Made by a program: the position numbers and the translations under genes | Assembly (NCBI GenBank): GCA_913056165.1 | Contig: CAJXMD010000020.1 | Coordinates: 1-39,331, forward strand | Source of the DNA: an uncultured Halieaceae bacterium | GTDB taxonomy: Bacteria; Pseudomonadota; Gammaproteobacteria; Pseudomonadales; Halieaceae | Length of the DNA: 39,331 bases | Direction of reading: 5' to 3' | Notes under the pieces: generated by a model | What the model was told of the DNA's origin: nothing | Database searches by the model: none | What the model saw: only the letters and a program-made list of their open reading frames with translations | Part shown: piece after piece, positions 9,017 through 17,102 of the stretch | How the letters are laid out: every line of letters begins with the position of its first letter | How positions within the stretch are numbered: the stretch's first letter is position 1

Positions 9017-9703
9017 CTAAAGGTTGACCACGTGTCTAAAATATTTCACGTGGCTGTACTTCAAGTCGGCGTCTTGCCCTGTTCCTCCCGTTTTACCGTC
9101 GGCACCCAGGGACTGGAGTTTGTACATGATGCGCACTCCCGCGAAGGGTTCGCAGACGTAGTCGTATGGCTGGCCCCAGGGATCACTGGGTATCTCTGAC
9201 AGATAGCCGCCCTCGGGGAAATTCCGGGGTGGATTGCCAACCGTTGCCGGGGATACCAACGCGGCGAGACCCTGCTCGGTCCAGGGGAAGTATCGATTTT
9301 CCTTTTCATAGGCGAGTAAGGGTTGTTCGAGCACTTCAAAATCAGTCATCACCGACAGGATAGAGTCGAGCTGTTCGTCAAAATCAATGGATAATGCCTC
9401 GTTGAGGGCGCTTTTCGGGTCATCGCTGCAGAAGATTTGAACATCGAGTTTTGACGGTCGCATGTTGGCGACCGTGTCTACGACCACAAACGCCTTGTAC
9501 TCGGGAAATCCTTGAAAATCCCGATCTAGGTACTCGCCACAGGTAACGTTACCCGGATAAGTGGCCATGTTACGAAAGCCAGAGCTTTTGTTCGGCATAG
9601 CCTCGGCCAGCGCTTCCTCATTTTTCTTGGCACCTGAAGCACAGCCAGCGGTAACAATTGCGGTGAGCACCGCGAGGGCAGTTAGCCGGTTGAATGAATG
9701 CAT
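9017..9703 (-). CDS. Lipoprotein with C-terminal GspG (type II secretion major pseudopilin)-like domain
   Basis: This 228-residue protein has a clear lipoprotein signal (MHSFNRLTALAVLTAIVTAGC, lipid Cys21). Residues about 24-125 are not recognised. Residues about 128-214 match the C-terminal part of GspG pseudopilins. They contain YEKENRYFPWTEQGLAALV, then GGYLSEIPSDPWGQPYDYV, then SLGADGKTGGTGQDADL, the loop that binds calcium in GspG. The defining pseudopilin N-terminal methylated helix is absent and replaced by the lipid anchor, so it cannot join a pseudopilus in the ordinary way. No other type II secretion gene is nearby. ATG 9703 has GAGG upstream at good spacing. It ends tail to tail with the permease gene. 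Domain identity is firm; role is unknown. Confidence 0.85.
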   Translation of the reverse strand: MHSFNRLTALAVLTAIVTAGCASGAKKNEEALAEAMPNKSSGFRNMATYPGNVTCGEYLDRDFQGFPEYKAFVVVDTVANMRPSKLDVQIFCSDDPKSALNEALSIDFDEQLDSILSVMTDFEVLEQPLLAYEKENRYFPWTEQGLAALVSPATVGNPPRNFPEGGYLSEIPSDPWGQPYDYVCEPFAGVRIMYKLQSLGADGKTGGTGQDADLKYSHVKYFRHVVNL

Positions 9704-10117: not shown

Positions 10118-10145
10118 GAGATCAAAACGAGACAAGGAGAAGTCC

Positions 10146-10436
10146 ATGAAATCATGTGTTGTAAATGCTATTGCGATGCCTCTTTTGGTGGCGTCACTGT
10201 CGGCAGTGGGTGCCTCACCAGGTACCGAGGAGAAGTTCGGGTTTGATCAGGCCCGGATGTTGGATAATCATCATCAGCCACTGGATGTGGTGCAAATGGA
10301 GACATTGAGAGGGGGATTAGCGCCGCTGGGTATAGCACTGGGTATAGCGGGTCTCGATCTTGCACTGATGGGTTTCTACTGGGGTGTTTACGTGCCTTAT
10401 TATGCCCCGCAAGAACCCGCTTATGACCTGCCCTAG
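10146..10436 (+). CDS. Small exported protein with double-glycine leader motif (putative C39 substrate / bacteriocin-like peptide)
   Basis: This is a 96-residue protein with a strong ribosome site (AAGGAG, 6 bases before ATG). Residues 1-23 look like a Sec signal peptide (MKSCVVNAIAMPLLVASLSA, then VGA). Residues 24-57 resemble a double-glycine leader, ending QPLDVVQMETLRGG. Hydrophobic residues sit at -4 (Leu), -7 (Met) and -12 (Leu) before the cut, the pattern recognised by C39 peptidases. The 39 residues after Gly57 are very hydrophobic and contain a GxxxG motif in LAPLGIALGIAGLDLALMGF and an aromatic stretch YWGVYVPYYAP. The next gene, 4 bases after its stop, encodes a C39-type peptidase. 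Having both a Sec signal and a double-glycine leader is odd, since these leaders are normally exported by ABC transporters. It might instead be an uncleaved small membrane protein. I do not recognise its family. Confidence 0.75.
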   Translation: MKSCVVNAIAMPLLVASLSAVGASPGTEEKFGFDQARMLDNHHQPLDVVQMETLRGGLAPLGIALGIAGLDLALMGFYWGVYVPYYAPQEPAYDLP

Positions 10437-10440
10437 TATC

Positions 10441-11055
10441 ATGATGAACGAGGGGGTGCTCTGTGAAGAGCACCCTTTACATCGCTCACACCACCCATAT
10501 CGAGGTCCATATCTCGGTTGGCTTGCGGGAGTGACTGTTTGTTTATCGCTAATCGCGGTCCTGACCGTTGCTTCTTACGGGGAGAAAGCTTGGGGCATTA
10601 ACGACCTGGGGGACAGCGACCCAGAAGTATCAAATTTTCTGCAGCAAAAACCCCAGAGTTGTGGTTTGGCAGCGTTACGTTTTTGGCTGGCGATGCATGG
10701 GCGGGCGATATCGGAAGCGGAGCTTGAGCGGCATGTAAACGACCGCCATCAGATCACTCCTGCAAGAATAGTTGAGCAGGGTTACAGTTTGGCCGATCTC
10801 GTGCACGCAGCCAAAACCCTCGGTTTCGAAGGATCGGCCCGATGGTTGACCCAACCGTCCAGTGCCAGCTTGGAGTTTCCGTTCATTGTCCTTTTGGCGG
10901 GGCAGAAGCGACCCCACTATTTGGTCGTGATTGACCGCCGCTCGGTGTTTGACCCAGCAGCGGGGTATCGAGAAATGTCTCTTGAGACTCTGTTACGGGA
11001 TTCATCCAGTAGTGTCGTCGCGCTATCGCTGAGTCAAAAACATCCCGCCGGTTAA
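10441..11055 (+). CDS. Membrane-anchored periplasmic C39-family cysteine peptidase (standalone)
   Basis: This 204-residue protein starts at ATG 10441 (ATG 10444 also possible). It lies 4 bases after the upstream stop with no clear ribosome site, suggesting translational coupling. Residues 1-23 are rich in His and Arg, then one membrane helix spans about 25-45 (LGWLAGVTVCLSLIAVLTVA). The positive-inside rule puts the following domain in the periplasm. The peptidase fold has Gln68 six residues before Cys74 (QQKPQSCGLAALRFWL), His159 (KRPHYLVVID) and Asp171 (VFDPAAGY). These form the complete C39 catalytic set, spaced as in bacteriocin-processing domains. No ABC transporter membrane or ATPase domain is fused or nearby. 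The likely substrate is the double-glycine protein encoded just before it. Family assignment is good; the substrate is inferred. Confidence 0.85.
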   Translation: MMNEGVLCEEHPLHRSHHPYRGPYLGWLAGVTVCLSLIAVLTVASYGEKAWGINDLGDSDPEVSNFLQQKPQSCGLAALRFWLAMHGRAISEAELERHVNDRHQITPARIVEQGYSLADLVHAAKTLGFEGSARWLTQPSSASLEFPFIVLLAGQKRPHYLVVIDRRSVFDPAAGYREMSLETLLRDSSSSVVALSLSQKHPAG

Positions 11056-11076: not shown

Positions 11077-14037
11077 CTACAGTAGCTCCTTGCGATGAAG
11101 CCCAAGTTCCTCCAGCAAAGAATGGTTATCCGCCGCATGTTGCGCATTGGTGACAACAGCGATACTGCTCGCCTCATTGTCGGTTAGATAAGTAGACGCA
11201 ACGCGATGAAGATCATCCAGCGTTGTGCCTACAACGCCTGCTCTGAACTGTGCGCGATGCTCTCGAGTGCGGCCAAACAGCGTTTCGTGAAAATGTTTCT
11301 TCGCCTCGCCTGCGGGAGATCCTGGTTTGTCCATGCTGCCGATGATGCCGAGAATAGCCTCTTCAAGAGCAAGGGAGTCGTGCGCACTGTTCAGCATCCA
11401 GTGAATCGATTGATCGAAATCCTCCAGCGTGCCCTGAATTCGGGGGTCTCGATATGAAAAGAACCGGAAGGCTCCAATATTGCCGTCATGACTCGCGCCT
11501 CCACCGTAGGCGCCCCCCTGTTCCCTGATTGCTCGATGCAAGAAACCATTTCTCAGGAAGGCCGCGAGCACGGTAAGCGCGGGCGCGTCGGGGTGGCCGC
11601 TGGGCACGGTTGGGAAGGCCTTCGCACAGAAATTTACCTGCGTATTGGCAACCCAGTACTCTCGTCGTGACTCTCGAATTGTTTTTGTGGTGAAGCTATT
11701 CGAAGGGGTTGTCTGTGCTATCGACCCAAGTGCTTTAAGGGTCAAGTCGTGGGCAGACCCCAGGTTGTCTGGATCAGCGATAGCAGCTGCCTGAAACTCC
11801 CCACCGCCAATGAGCTTCGCGTGCAGCGTTTTTAACTCCTCGAGCACGGATTCGAGTTCCACGTCACTCTTTACCCGGTCGTCGAGCAAACGACAGCGCC
11901 GTATACCCTCAAGCCCTCCTTGCTGATGACTGCGAAGCGCCAGCGGACTCATGCCGGCGGTTGCAGCGGTCATCGCCAAGCTGTGTCCGCTACCTGTGAT
12001 CGACTGATCCCGGCGGGCTCTGATCTGATTGATTAATTCCCTCACTCGCTTGCCCTCATCGAAGCGGGCCTGCAGGAGTGTGTCCTGCATAAGTGCCACT
12101 TGTTTCTCGGCTCGGTTTGCAAGCGCTTTCGATGAGAGTAAGAAGAATGCTGAGCAATTTTGCTCATCCAGCCGATCACTGCGCGTAAGGGTTGCCGCAC
12201 TGATCGAGCCCACGGTGGCGGATTGTCGATCCTGGACCGCGAGATAGGTGTCTTTTGCAATGCCCACCTCTGTTAACAGTCCCGTCAGAAGGGGCAGTCG
12301 ATCAGACTCATGTTCCGACAGGGCAGGGAGGGGCTTGACCCACTGCTGGTACACGATGCCATTGGTGCCCGTTGGGTAGCGCCAAACGGGGACTTGGGCA
12401 TTGCCTGACTTGAAGCATTCTGGCTCCGGCAGATCCTTGGGTATGTCCTCAAGGGATACCCGCGGCAAAATATCAGGATCGTCTTCCTGCGCCTGACGCT
12501 GTTTCAGCTTGTCAGCGAGATTTATCACGTTTGCGCGATCTTCCGCGGTCATTTCGGCAGTCATTTTTTCGAGCCGGTCAATCTCACGCTGTTGAGCTTG
12601 CGCTGATAGTTCCCCATCCGGTTTAACCGTTAGCGTCACTCGATGAGTGTTCTCCAAAAGTAGCGATCTAATGAGCTGCGGGATATAGCTAGGGTCTTGG
12701 ATTCGTTTGCGAATAGTGTCGAGCACCGCATCCAGATCCAATGCGGAAACGGGATCTCCACCATGAACGGCGGCGCCGAGGCTCCGCAGCATCAGATTGA
12801 GCCCATAGGGCATCCCATCACCCGTCAACTCCCGTTGGCTTAATTCAATCTGATGAAGAATGGCTTCCAGTCGTTCTGTCGTCACACCCTTGTCGGCAAC
12901 GTCCTCAAGGACGCTGAGAACGGCTTGTTCGAACGGCTCGACATGCTCGGGGGCGCTCCCTTCAACCCCGCAACAAAAAATCATCTCACGCATCGACTCC
13001 TCGACACCACAGAGGGGCGAGGGGGAAGAGCCCAGATCCGTGGTCTCCAGAAACTGCATCAAGGGTGATGCACTATTTTCCATAAGCACCGCAGACAATA
13101 CCTGTGCCTCAAGCATGGCTGTAAGATCAGCGCTTTCGCCCAGTTTCCAGCCCATGATGTGATGCGTCTTTCTTTCCAGACCCTCTGAAGAATCGACCGC
13201 GTACGGATGGGTGGCTCTTCTGGGTCTGACAAAGGGCGTCTCCAGTCCGACTTCTATCTTTTCGTCGGATTTTGAGAACCGATGCAAGACCAGATTCTGG
13301 AAATCCTGTTGGTGAGATTCAGCAGGTATGTTGCCAAAGGTGAGAAAAATAGCATTGCTTGGGTGATAGTGCCGGGCGTAAAAGTCTCGCAGCTCTTGAT
13401 ATGACAAATCCGGGATATTTTCTGGATCACCTCCGCTATTGAAGTGATAGGTGTTTGTCGGAAACAACTCAAAACATAGCCGGTCCCACAAGATAGAGGT
13501 GGTGGAAGACATCGCACCTTTCATCTCGTTAAAAACGACTCCTTTAAAGACTAATGCCTCCCCCTCACCATCTTGTTTTTTTTCAAACTCGACCCGGTGT
13601 CCCTCTTGCGCAAAATCAAGGGGATCGATCCGGGAGAAGAACACTGCGTCGAGGTAGACCGAGAGAAGGTTGGAGAAGTCCTTCTGGTTTTGAGTTGCAA
13701 ACGGGTACGCGGTCCAGTCTGAGCTGGTAAAAGCATTCATAAAGGTGTTCAGGGATCTCCGCAGCATCATGAAGAAGGGGTCCCTAACTGGATAGCGCTC
13801 ACTGCCACACAGCACCGTATGCTCCAAAATGTGTGCGACACCGGTGGAGTCCTCGGGCACTGTTCTCAATGCCACCATGAAAACATTCTCTGAGTTGTCG
13901 CTACTGAGATGTAAATGCACAGCGCCTGTCGCGGGATGCTCGTATTCTTCAACCGTCAAATTGAGCGCGGCGATGGGTGTGCTGCGTTTGAGCTCGAAAT
14001 GTTTTTCTAGTGCTTGGGTGTTAGTGACTGATGACAT
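11077..14037 (-). CDS. M16C metalloprotease, presequence-protease (PreP/Cym1)-like
   Basis: This is a 986-residue zinc peptidase of the M16 family, in the size class of PreP, which degrades short unstructured peptides inside a closed chamber. The inverted zinc motif HILEH (residues 69-73) is intact. The third ligand is probably Glu171 in GVVFNEMKGAMSS, the block typical of PreP. Nearby LEHTVLCGSERYPVRDPFFM and LNTFMNAFTSSDWTAYPFAT are also family signatures. The C-terminal half has the degenerate M16 repeat, including REQGGAYGGGASHDGNIGAF. No signal peptide is visible, so it should be cytoplasmic. It ends 21 bases from the convergent C39 peptidase gene. Bacterial members are known; the natural substrate here is not evident. 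Confidence 0.92.
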   Translation of the reverse strand: MSSVTNTQALEKHFELKRSTPIAALNLTVEEYEHPATGAVHLHLSSDNSENVFMVALRTVPEDSTGVAHILEHTVLCGSERYPVRDPFFMMLRRSLNTFMNAFTSSDWTAYPFATQNQKDFSNLLSVYLDAVFFSRIDPLDFAQEGHRVEFEKKQDGEGEALVFKGVVFNEMKGAMSSTTSILWDRLCFELFPTNTYHFNSGGDPENIPDLSYQELRDFYARHYHPSNAIFLTFGNIPAESHQQDFQNLVLHRFSKSDEKIEVGLETPFVRPRRATHPYAVDSSEGLERKTHHIMGWKLGESADLTAMLEAQVLSAVLMENSASPLMQFLETTDLGSSPSPLCGVEESMREMIFCCGVEGSAPEHVEPFEQAVLSVLEDVADKGVTTERLEAILHQIELSQRELTGDGMPYGLNLMLRSLGAAVHGGDPVSALDLDAVLDTIRKRIQDPSYIPQLIRSLLLENTHRVTLTVKPDGELSAQAQQREIDRLEKMTAEMTAEDRANVINLADKLKQRQAQEDDPDILPRVSLEDIPKDLPEPECFKSGNAQVPVWRYPTGTNGIVYQQWVKPLPALSEHESDRLPLLTGLLTEVGIAKDTYLAVQDRQSATVGSISAATLTRSDRLDEQNCSAFFLLSSKALANRAEKQVALMQDTLLQARFDEGKRVRELINQIRARRDQSITGSGHSLAMTAATAGMSPLALRSHQQGGLEGIRRCRLLDDRVKSDVELESVLEELKTLHAKLIGGGEFQAAAIADPDNLGSAHDLTLKALGSIAQTTPSNSFTTKTIRESRREYWVANTQVNFCAKAFPTVPSGHPDAPALTVLAAFLRNGFLHRAIREQGGAYGGGASHDGNIGAFRFFSYRDPRIQGTLEDFDQSIHWMLNSAHDSLALEEAILGIIGSMDKPGSPAGEAKKHFHETLFGRTREHRAQFRAGVVGTTLDDLHRVASTYLTDNEASSIAVVTNAQHAADNHSLLEELGLHRKELL

Positions 14038-14097
14038 AAATTGGTGTGGCCCGGTATGAGAGTGTAGTCGGAGGCGTATTGTAACGATTTGGAGACC

Positions 14098-14955
14098 CTA
14101 GTCTGTGGGTTCAAGGATAATTTGAAAGATTTTTGGCCACCGTTTGCCGGTAACCCAGATTTTCCCTGTCTCGGGATCTCTGGCTATACCGTTGAGTACA
14201 TCGGTATCCCTTAGTCGATCCTCTGGACTAAGGAGATTGGACGCGTCGATCAGACCAACTACTTGCCCGGAGTCGGGATCGATGCGGGCGATAGTATCTG
14301 TCTGCCAGATGTTGGCCCAGAGCTCGCCCTCGACCCACTCCAGTTCATTGAGCCGCTTGAGCGGTTTGCCCTCTAGAGTGACGTCAATGATGGTGACAGT
14401 TGGCGTATTCCGGGCAGCCTTACTTTGTTGAAGGGCGTCTTGAGAATGGTCCTGTGACAGGCTCTTAGAAAGATCAAGCCGTATCAATCGCTGGGATCCA
14501 TCGGATAGCCACAGGCTCTGGTCGTGGTGGGCGAGCCCCCAACCTTCGCCTTGATAGCCCATCGCCGCTTGTATTTCGAGTGACAGTGGATCAAGAACGA
14601 GTAAGCGCCCCTCGCGCCAGGTGAGCAGGTACAGTTTGTCGTCAATGCGGGTCAAACCCTCGGCGAAAAACTGGGGTGCCAGTGCCGCTTCACGCGCGCG
14701 CGTCATATTGGCCCAATCATAGACTCTCACAGCGGATTTCCCGTAGAGGCCCGAGCTAACATAGAGCTCTCCCTCACTGATTTCCAGGCCCTGAGTAAAG
14801 TTCTCCCGCGGAAAAGGTTTTACGTCTGTGACAATGGCGCGGTAACGGGGTACTGAGTCCGTCGGAATCTCGTCGCCCCGAGATGATTGAAGGCATACGA
14901 TAGAGAGACTCACTCCCAGCAGCAGGAAGCGAAGAAGCGGGGGAGCAGGTTTCAT
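14098..14955 (-). CDS. Glutaminyl-peptide cyclotransferase (plant/bacterial-type glutamine cyclase)
   Basis: The predicted enzyme converts N-terminal Gln to pyroglutamate on exported peptides or proteins. From ATG 14955 it has 285 residues with a signal peptide (MKPAPPLLRFLLLGVSLSIV, then about to residue 26). The beta-propeller repeats of this family are visible: RENFTQGLEISEGELYVSSG, FAEGLTRIDDKLYLLTWREG, GEGWGLAHHDQSLWLSDGS, LNELEWVEGELWANIWQTD and LNGIARDPETGKIWVTGKRW. The conserved Glu in FTQGLE and the Glu-Trp of NELEW are expected active-site residues. A GTG at 15027 in the same frame overlaps the MnmC stop (GTGA). It would add 24 residues ahead of the signal, so I prefer 14955, but coupling to mnmC from the upstream start is possible. 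Confidence 0.85.
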   Translation of the reverse strand: MKPAPPLLRFLLLGVSLSIVCLQSSRGDEIPTDSVPRYRAIVTDVKPFPRENFTQGLEISEGELYVSSGLYGKSAVRVYDWANMTRAREAALAPQFFAEGLTRIDDKLYLLTWREGRLLVLDPLSLEIQAAMGYQGEGWGLAHHDQSLWLSDGSQRLIRLDLSKSLSQDHSQDALQQSKAARNTPTVTIIDVTLEGKPLKRLNELEWVEGELWANIWQTDTIARIDPDSGQVVGLIDASNLLSPEDRLRDTDVLNGIARDPETGKIWVTGKRWPKIFQIILEPTD

Positions 14956-15023
14956 CAGCCTCAGGATCAGAGCGGTGAGCGGAGCAGTAATAATATCGGG
15001 TGACAACTTCTTAGCGCCCAAAC

Positions 15024-17102
15024 TCACAGGGGAGTGCCCCTGATTAAGCCACGAGCCAGAAAACGTGCGGGGGAAAGGGCTCTATGTAATTGCCGGCTAA
15101 TTGGCGGAGATTCACCGCAAATATCGCTGGCCAGTATTTCGCCGGCTAGGGGTGCGGCTGTCAGACCACGGGAACCAAGACCGCCAATCATCCACAAATC
15201 AGGAATCAGTGGCGCGCGGCCCTCGATAACAGCAGTTTTTCGATGTCGCAATTGATCGTAATGCAGATTAAATGCGTTTTTGTCGGGCACAGGGCCAACA
15301 ACGGGCAGGTAATCAGCAGTGGTACAACGCAGAGCAACGTGGCCCCGAAGTGTCTGCGCGTCACAGCTAATCGATAACGCCGGCAGCGCGTCCTTCAATC
15401 GTTCGAGATTCTCCTCGTGTTCAGCTCGGCGTTCGTCGCAACTGGCATCGTTAGGTCCGTAGCTCGCTCCGATGCAGTGAACGCCGTCGCGGGGAGGGGG
15501 TAAATAGCCTTCGTGACATACGGCAACCTTCGGCGTGTGCGACAGCACAGAGGTGGGCAGGTGAGTGGTCTGCCCTCTTATCGCTTGAAGGGGTAGCCAA
15601 TCTGTAAACGTATGAGCAGCAATATCATAGGCACTGGCGAGTATCACGGTATCTGCTTTCAGTTCTCGGTTTTTACACTTTACCTGCCATCCACACTCAC
15701 GCCGGGTTATGGAGATAACAGGGTGTTCCACAAGCAGCTCAATATTGGGATGCTGAAGCCGCTCGAGGCACACTGCTGCCGGATTGAGCCAGCAGGCATC
15801 TGGGAACCAGACGGCCCTCTGATCACAGGCAACGCCCAGTAGCTCACTGGCTGATTCTGAACTCAGGATACGAAATGGTAACGCTGGATCTGCAAACTGC
15901 GACAGATAATCGAGGGTTTCATGATCACTGGAAAGCTGTATGTAGCCACACTGAGATCCATCTATCCCCTCTTGAAGCCCTGCCATTCCCTCGCCGGAGT
16001 CGAGCAGGCGTTTATACAACGACGTGGCGTTCAGGTAGCTCGCAATAGCGAAGTCCGTCAGCGGAGAGAAGCGGCGAGAGGGACGGGTATAGGTGATGCC
16101 TTGCAGATTAGATGAACCTCCTGAGGCAACCTGCTTGCCATCAAGGACGACAACATGAAGTCCGCGATCCGCGAGAGCCCGGGCGGCAAAGGCACCAGCG
16201 AGACCCGCCCCTATGACAATCGCTTTACCAGGGTTTGGAGAGGGATCAGCGACGTCCCAAGGGCATATCGGTGATGGTTTCACCCTGGTCGTCGGCGACT
16301 TTTGGTCCGACGGTTCGAGTCGAGAGTTAGAGCTGGCAGGGGGTGTCTTGAAAAAGCCTTCCAGGCACTCTCGTTTTTGACCGAACCCCTCTCGTTTTTT
16401 TACTTCAAAGCCTGCCTCGGAAAGACCCCTTCGCACATGGCCAGCTGCGGTGAAGGTGGTGAAACGGGCTCCGGGTTTGCTCAGTTCGGCCATGTGCCGG
16501 AAAACTGTTTGACACCACAGGTCAGCATTTTTTGCAGGCGCAAATCCGTCCAGGTACCAATAGTTCACCCACTGGCGTCCGCGGGAAGACAGGTCCCCGA
16601 GGACGGCGAGGGCATCTTCCCACCAGAGATCTAGTGTGATGCCAAGATGATGCCACTGCAGCCGGTGACAGCCTCGCACCGGTCCGGGCCACACACTAAT
16701 GAGCGTTTTGGCAGGAAATTTGAAGTCAGGCCAGTGTGCTGATGCTCTTGTTACGTCTGACGCGGACAACGGCTTCGCGTCTATTCCTACGTAATGCAAT
16801 CTTGAGGTGCGTTTGAATGAGCTAGTGGCTTGCTTCTCTGAGAGCCAGTGATCTGCGGTCACCAGAAAATTAAGACCGGTGCCAAATCCCGTCTCAACGA
16901 CGCAGGCATCCTCCTCTGGTGGATGCCGAGCATGTTGATCCAGCTGGCTGCCCTGTAGAAAGACATATCGACTCTCAGCCACACCATTGGCGCTCGAGTA
17001 ATAAACGTCGTCGTATTCAACACTCCTTGGAACTCCCGTGTCCGACCAATCCACGATCGGACGTTCAGTGGGTTGCCATGGTTGGTTATGTCTCGAAATC
17101 AC
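15024..17102 (-). CDS. mnmC: Bifunctional tRNA 5-(carboxy)methylaminomethyl-2-thiouridine methyltransferase/oxidoreductase MnmC
   Basis: The enzyme performs the last two steps of mnm5s2U formation at the wobble base of Lys, Glu and Gln tRNAs. FAD-dependent removal of the carboxymethyl group is followed by SAM-dependent methylation. It has 692 residues, similar to E. coli MnmC (668). The N-terminal methyltransferase (about 1-240) shows YDDVYYSSANGVAESRYVFL, VVETGFGTGLNFL and WYLDGFAPAKNADLW. The C-terminal FAD domain starts with the dinucleotide fold KAIVIGAGLAGAFAARALAD (about 292-311) and ends with a second motif IGGLGSRGLTAAPLAGEILA. A linker of about 45 residues rich in Pro and Ser separates the halves. 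GTG 17102 is the start; its ribosome site is weak. Confidence 0.95.
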   Translation of the reverse strand: MISRHNQPWQPTERPIVDWSDTGVPRSVEYDDVYYSSANGVAESRYVFLQGSQLDQHARHPPEEDACVVETGFGTGLNFLVTADHWLSEKQATSSFKRTSRLHYVGIDAKPLSASDVTRASAHWPDFKFPAKTLISVWPGPVRGCHRLQWHHLGITLDLWWEDALAVLGDLSSRGRQWVNYWYLDGFAPAKNADLWCQTVFRHMAELSKPGARFTTFTAAGHVRRGLSEAGFEVKKREGFGQKRECLEGFFKTPPASSNSRLEPSDQKSPTTRVKPSPICPWDVADPSPNPGKAIVIGAGLAGAFAARALADRGLHVVVLDGKQVASGGSSNLQGITYTRPSRRFSPLTDFAIASYLNATSLYKRLLDSGEGMAGLQEGIDGSQCGYIQLSSDHETLDYLSQFADPALPFRILSSESASELLGVACDQRAVWFPDACWLNPAAVCLERLQHPNIELLVEHPVISITRRECGWQVKCKNRELKADTVILASAYDIAAHTFTDWLPLQAIRGQTTHLPTSVLSHTPKVAVCHEGYLPPPRDGVHCIGASYGPNDASCDERRAEHEENLERLKDALPALSISCDAQTLRGHVALRCTTADYLPVVGPVPDKNAFNLHYDQLRHRKTAVIEGRAPLIPDLWMIGGLGSRGLTAAPLAGEILASDICGESPPISRQLHRALSPARFLARGLIRGTPL

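Follow-up and report, generated by a model that had tools for sequence, protein, structure and literature searches.

Genes and predicted products at the locus

The stretch of DNA analysed here (the window) comprises 39,331 nucleotides, makes up the whole of contig CAJXMD010000020.1 in the genome assembly GCA_913056165.1 of an uncultured Halieaceae bacterium, and carries on its forward strand two adjacent genes, referred to below as A and C, that encode a 96-residue leader protein with a predicted Sec-type export signal and a standalone C39 peptidase of 204 residues. A preliminary description, made from the letters of the window, had proposed that A is exported by Sec and then cleaved in the periplasm by C. 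Its coordinates, reading frames and residue assignments for both genes, including a 4-bp gap between them and a 39-residue core with a GxxxG motif, were all reproduced.

Gene A (10146..10436, stop codon included) is preceded by a likely Shine-Dalgarno sequence, read by eye as AAGGAG (10134..10139), with 6 bp separating it from the ATG. Residues 1–23 of the product (10146..10214) form a predicted Sec signal peptide with a hydrophobic segment at residues 4–22 and a possible cut, judged by eye, after VGA, and are followed by a variable, poorly conserved propeptide (residues 24–45; 10215..10280). The C39-type recognition leader LDVVQMETLRGG (residues 46–57; 10281..10316) comprises L46 (-12), M51 (-7), L54 (-4), R55, G56 and G57, and the predicted mature peptide (residues 58–96; 10317..10433) is a 39-residue hydrophobic stretch with G62xxxG66. 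AlphaFold2 modelled a single helix at residues 58–86 with good confidence and little else, and a Foldseek search with this mostly low-confidence model returned no match. Two weak NCBIfam matches of A to archaeal proteasome models (E 0.041 and 0.06) were taken as chance. A 101-residue open reading frame (ORF) lies on the opposite strand at 10168–10473; that gene A is a chance ORF is ruled out by its 58 relatives.

Gene C (10441..11055, forward strand, stop codon included) starts with its ATG directly after the 4-bp gap (10437–10440). A hydrophobic segment at residues 25–43 (10513..10569), modelled as a helix at 25–41 with low confidence, is predicted to be an N-terminal membrane anchor, while the C39 domain spans approximately residues 64–199 (10630..11037). 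The protein matches Pfam Peptidase_C39 (PF03412) with 47.7 bits against a gathering cut-off of 22, and Gln68, Cys74, His159 and Asp171 are intact, as had been proposed. In the model, the C39 domain has block values of the predicted local distance difference test score of 84–96, mostly near 90 or above, and its best PDB matches are the peptidase domains of ComA, PCAT1 and LahT, which its sequence matches too. A search of the window's own genome with C at E values up to 1 found only C itself.

Conservation of the A-C pair in Halieaceae

Single-sequence searches of 140 genomes of the family detected C in 47 and A in 56, and profile searches detected A in 62 and C39 domains in 84, including those fused to ATP-binding cassette (ABC) proteins. 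For 60 of the 62 A matches a C39 gene was located downstream on the same strand within 1.5 kb, and the two A matches without one (G105 and G015) are no more than 450 bp away from where their contigs end. The A-C pair is conserved in Halieaceae, and the proposed tie between a Sec-type leader protein and a standalone C39 peptidase is borne out by these counts. Relatives of A were found in Luminiphilus metagenome-assembled genomes, strain HTCC2080, Haliea salexigens DSM 19537 and H. alexandrii, among the 24 loci that could be named. A contig scan of the genomes with C alone gave 53 pattern stretches, of which none was confirmed.

Retention of the C39 gene without the small gene had been put forward in the preliminary description as an observation against the pairing. 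It was seen in a minority, 17 of 77 standalone C39 matches in the family genomes (a tally that leaves out ABC-fused matches, a second G070 fragment and one 368-residue frame in G025), many of them contig-end pieces or broken genes. Five lie at contig ends (G081, G015, G105, G106, G005), three are fragments (G065, G070, G091), and the C39 of G002 has its catalytic Cys changed, while G069 seems to have lost A. Other leader-bearing neighbours adjoin the C39s of G036, G054 and G055, with scores of at least 12 in the leader matrix described below; neighbours of the C39s of G133 and G030 score 10.8 and 6.5, and a different leader protein stands beside the C39 of G134.

Conservation within A was measured over 58 proteins from 61 loci (60 fetched loci and the window). 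Gly56, at -2, is invariant, whereas the second Gly of the double-glycine motif claimed in the preliminary description is present in 13 of the 58, so that GG is not the rule. Position -1 is confined to R (21), G (13), E (9), K (6), Q (5) and A (4), and GG or GA, the former being the state of the window, occurs at -2/-1 in 17 of the 58. Of the hydrophobic positions that had been claimed at -12, -7 and -4, the first two stood: position 46 is hydrophobic in 58/58 and position 51 in 57/58 when Ala, found in 14, is counted. Position 54 is only loosely constrained, with T in 18, V in 11, L in 11, S in 7, I in 5 and other residues in the rest. At -8, occupied by Q50 in the window, Glu is found in 27/58, and position 55 is Arg in 40/58. 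The core is the most conserved part of the protein, with D71, G80 and Y82 each in all 58 sequences, P84 in 56, P60 in 55 and W79 in 47, and residues 24–45 are the least conserved. A small-x-small pattern, in a lenient form, was present in 57/58 and, together with the N-terminal hydrophobic stretch, suggests export by Sec.

Among 41 aligned C39 proteins, the residues corresponding to C74, H159 and D171 are present in all. An N-terminal hydrophobic segment was predicted in 39 of the 41, and in 34 of these 39 more positive charge precedes the segment than follows it, a bias that favours a periplasmic C39 domain; the periplasm-facing orientation put forward for C in the preliminary description is likewise the predicted one here. 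In eight of the ten RGG-type loci (the window, L061–L067, L069 and L070) an NDCGLRAV-like stretch replaces QxxxxxCG in the C39.

The A-type leader beside other standalone C39 peptidases

A 12-column matrix was built from A leaders alone and applied, with a threshold of 12, to same-strand ORFs called by a simple script within 1.3 kb of standalone C39 genes, nearly all of them from other families of the order. The 63 loci (40, a further 22 smaller ones numbered L146–L167, and L135) were hand-picked from the better-ranked matches rather than at random and contain repeats of the same gene, and were therefore recounted as 56 distinct C39s. A neighbour scoring at least 12 was found beside 35 of the 56, compared with none of 124 control anchors (Fisher, 6e-23), and in 10 of 18 C39 clusters at 60% identity (7e-11 by cluster). 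At the level of single genes, 36 of 173 near genes reached 12 in comparison to 4 of 761 control genes, and of these four, two (L107) flank a standalone C39, one is the L076 C39 itself and the fourth, from L106, is unrelated. Farther from the C39s but within the same loci, 4 of 203 genes reached 12. A reciprocal test gave 58/58, a figure that is partly circular in that the non-A leaders had been chosen by the A matrix.

In the fap operons, the gene after fapD scored 18.2–21.0 in 6/6 and the other ORFs printed for these operons scored 9.0 or less. This gene is FapE according to NCBIfam in all six (337–351 bits, cut-off 250). FilA-like proteins beside FilB-like C39s scored 12–16; with 155 and 51 bits against NF050077 they fall below its cut-off of 220, as do four FilB-like C39s with 263–302 bits below theirs of 475. 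A score of 12–16 was also obtained for a Gly/His-rich protein of 112 residues with the leader LSQEEMQNTEGA beside the standalone C39 of L135. Possible variants with Ala at -2 (LSEGELDQITAG and LSAPQLDAVTAG) were seen and left out of the counts. The leader common to A, FapE and FilA-like proteins, like the third ORF present in most homologues, lies beyond the window and was out of reach of the preliminary description.

Two arrangements found during this survey are recorded here. In L213 (2924–4503 and 5788–7367) a set made up of a small exported protein together with a C39 and a FapE-like protein occurs twice in tandem; the flanking proteins are identical between copies and both bear a leader. 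At L107:7206–8239 a standalone C39 is preceded by a different 95-residue Sec-type protein with the leader MTSDELAQVRGE.

The third ORF and the genomic surroundings

A further small ORF (B) lies between A and C in 44 of the 55 loci from which both genes were recovered. As picked by script, B measures 78–181 residues and has one or two hydrophobic segments in 37/44, and Pfam and NCBIfam gave nothing above cut-off for it. There is no room for B in the window and nine relatives (L061–L067, L069, L070), and L097 was counted among the loci lacking a separate B owing to an overlong ORF call for its C39.

With family names taken from the window members, an M16-type gene lies downstream on the other strand in 43/58 A loci and a citrate-type transporter gene upstream in 32/58, which points to inheritance at a fixed place. 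In the window, the other strand at 11077–15027, after the pair, encodes an M16C/PreP-like peptidase and a glutamine cyclotransferase; genes like these recur in 43/58 and 38/58 loci by clusters matched by eye, and their presence is probably synteny only. At 9017–9703 the window encodes a putative lipoprotein in which a domain of the type II secretion protein G (T2SSG) family is recognised with 73.9 bits. A defence system was also considered and rejected: PADLOC gave no match for A or C and a weak one (E 0.056) for one of two B proteins.

Peptides related to class IIb bacteriocins

Lone short GG peptides without a Sec-type signal were found in two genomes of another family (L136:7996–8175 and L137:7778–7927), and their core, GGLGPLAVIGIDLALNG, resembles the A core. 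These peptides pass the class IIb bacteriocin model (TIGR03949) with 30 and 27 bits against a cut-off of 21.5, and no C39 transporter gene was recognised by eye in the 15.5–16 kb fetched around them, where no profile search was made. An hhalign comparison of ten A proteins with one of these peptides gave an E value of 7.6e-7 and a probability of 91.7 over leader and core. The window A itself had no match to TIGR03949, and among A members 7 of 41 matched weakly, the best with an E value of 0.0035, all below the cut-off.

Proposed maturation of A and alternative interpretations

We propose, with a probability of about 0.72, that A is exported by Sec and cut at its leader by periplasmic C. In the A precursor, a Sec signal peptide would be followed by a variable propeptide, with the C39 leader at its end, and then by a hydrophobic core some 40 residues long; in the leader, -12 and -7 are hydrophobic, -8 is often Glu and the Gly at -2 is invariant. 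Once A had been exported, C, anchored in the inner membrane through a single N-terminal helix and with a periplasmic C39 domain, would grip the leader as the peptidases of peptidase-containing ABC transporters (PCATs) grip theirs and cut at the invariant glycine, with the bond either immediately behind this Gly or one residue further on. The freed core may then form a membrane-inserted helix with its N-terminus in the periplasm, and B, where present, would probably accompany the peptide. This proposal draws on the pairing, the residue constraint, the C39 fold and the shared leader, as well as on the precedent of FapD for a working periplasmic C39. As for the product, a peptide subunit that stays in the envelope is put forward tentatively, in preference to a secreted toxin, at somewhat less than even odds.

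Several observations weigh against this maturation scheme. The residue at -1 is R, E, K or Q in 41 of the 58 A proteins, compared with the GG, GA or GS of known double-glycine motifs as given in passages of PMC6363468, which implies either an unusual site or a cut one residue earlier. The oxyanion residue Gln68 is kept in 33 of the 41 aligned C39s and absent in eight (L062–L067, L069, L070), all from RGG-type loci in which B is missing too; the GG state and the losses of B and of the oxyanion Gln seem to occur together. In 5 of 39 C39s the charges break the positive-inside rule or are tied, and the hydropathy peak of the window A core is modest at 1.35, where 56/58 relatives reach 1.5. A family C39 in G056 (L263) has no adjoining leader protein and is a true exception to the pairing, and 21 of the 56 distinct standalone C39s have no neighbour scoring at least 12, among them every member of one FilB-like cluster (10 loci, 9 distinct).

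The unusual -1 residues, together with the missing Gln, would also be expected if C bound the A leader without cutting it, a chaperone-like use of the C39 fold in which odd residues at -1 are tolerated as nothing is cleaved. This is improbable, given that C74, H159 and D171 are kept in 41/41 C39s and that FapD needs its Cys according to passages of PMC5557850. Were cleavage to occur, residues 24–57 would be freed as well as the core, and the N-terminal propeptide could be the actual product, for instance a periplasmic or extracellular signal; conservation argues the other way, residues 24–45 being the least and the core the most conserved, and this idea is given very little weight. Two further readings accept the cleavage and differ on the fate of the peptide, and we consider both unlikely, to a similar degree. 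One holds that A is a Sec-exported bacteriocin or microcin, that C frees a pore-forming peptide directed against relatives and that B is the immunity protein. The alignment of A with a peptide passing the class IIb model, the hydrophobic core with GxxxG and the frequent presence of B, usually with a hydrophobic segment, all fit this picture. Typical bacteriocin loci are variable, however, whereas the A core is highly conserved (D71, G80 and Y82 in 58/58) and the locus recurs beside the same M16-type and transporter genes; moreover the window and nine relatives lack B, no outer-membrane exporter was noticed among the neighbour clusters, and A members fail the bacteriocin model.

The other reading regards A as an accessory or fibre-type subunit of a surface structure, the role assumed for FapE and FilA; the matured peptide would pass the outer membrane by way of a pore whose gene lies elsewhere. 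A shares with FapE and FilA-like proteins both the leader beside a C39 and a Sec-type export signal. A core that is a hydrophobic helix of 40 residues speaks against this reading, as does the absence of FapB-, FapC-, FapF- and FilC-like genes from the recurrent neighbour clusters, the rest of the genome not having been searched for them. The preferred scheme, Sec export of A followed by cleavage at the leader by periplasmic C, may in turn be one case of a general second double-glycine pathway in Gram-negatives, which we consider slightly better than an even chance. It would involve Sec export, an internal leader of the form [LVMI]-x-x-x-[EA]-[LM]-x-x-x-[RT]-G-[GRKQEA] and maturation by a periplasmic standalone C39, with FapE (cut near LRG[RK]), FilA-like proteins and Halieaceae A as three branches, and A may then be a peptide of the class IIb bacteriocin type to which a Sec signal was added.

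The A leader gives a specific predicted cut site in FapE and FilA-like proteins, and links the Fap and Fil systems to a conserved peptide system that is far smaller and occurs in marine bacteria amenable to culture, for example Haliea salexigens DSM 19537. Amyloid secretion depends on FapD, and the question of the substrate of this peptidase becomes testable by changing one glycine. The leader can also serve as a pattern for finding exported peptides that would be overlooked in transporter-based mining. Taken together, the findings suggest one shared and little-known maturation route for A-type, amyloid and pilus-like systems.

Comparison with known systems

The preliminary description knew of no named system with exactly this design, a view that is not supported in the light of FapD, as described in passages of PMC5557850, and of NCBIfam, where the C39 peptidase of a putative pilus system goes by the name FilB. 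According to those passages, FapD is a Sec-exported C39 that acts in the periplasm and whose active-site Cys is needed for FapC secretion; in 2017 they described the Fap proteins as lacking canonical C39 sequences while suggesting GG and GA motifs in FapE. The substrate of FapD was called undetermined in a 2018 paper (PMC6173800), and in a 2025 paper (PMC12822426) FapD is "thought to process" FapE and FapF. The leader site proposed here lies at about residue 40 of FapE, as placed by eye in the L200 protein, which fits the statement in a passage of PMC5557850 that no peptides from the first ~70 residues of FapE were found, although it does not prove the site.

As in the FapD-FapE pair (FapE example LKDSEMAELRGR), a standalone C39 adjoins a protein with the same leader, and export by Sec is predicted for A and C too; unlike A, FapE has about 250 residues, and the Fap operon contains FapA, B, C and F, unlike the A-C loci. 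Neither the recurrent neighbour clusters nor a Pfam scan of eight window proteins revealed a fap-like gene, and the window C reached 15 bits (E 0.011) against the FapD model (NF058616, cut-off 330). The FilA-FilB-FilC system is similar in that FilB-like standalone C39s adjoin Sec-type exported FilA-like proteins with the leader MDDAALSGVTGQ, a comparison based on scanned examples that match the Fil models below their cut-offs. It differs in that the FilA-like proteins have about 150–370 residues and FilC-like, FapF-related proteins lie nearby; the recurrent neighbour clusters of A loci held no FilA or FilC, and the FilB model (NF050078, cut-off 475 bits) did not list the window C at E values up to 10. 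A tree built from 73 C39s placed FapD, FilB-like and related C39s together in one branch (support 100/99), which contained none of 38 A-type C39s (of 41, three were dropped by a domain-trimming rule). The A-type C39s did not form a single group, and L105 attached weakly near the Fap/Fil side. C was rejected as a FapD or FilB on the model scores and the tree.

With the C39 peptidases of PCATs such as ComA, LahT and PCAT1, the pair shares the C39 fold and the leader positions -12, -8, -7 and -2 described for ComA and LahT in passages of PMC6363468. In contrast to these, C is a 204-residue standalone protein without an ABC transporter domain, A has predicted Sec-type export by a rule-based hydrophobic segment (4–22) ahead of the leader, and the residue at -1 extends beyond G, A and S in the A family. 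A was rejected as a classical PCAT substrate. The leader and core of A align with a peptide passing the model of the lactobin A/cerein 7B family (TIGR03949), although A, unlike these class IIb bacteriocins, carries a Sec-type signal. Within the open PubMed Central full texts, no description of the A-C pair or of the shared leader was found, most subscription papers and preprints held elsewhere falling outside that scope. The A-C pair is best read as a new variation on leader proteins that are exported by Sec and matured in the periplasm, with a membrane peptide of about 40 residues as its predicted product; the design itself has precedents in FapD/FapE and FilA/FilB.
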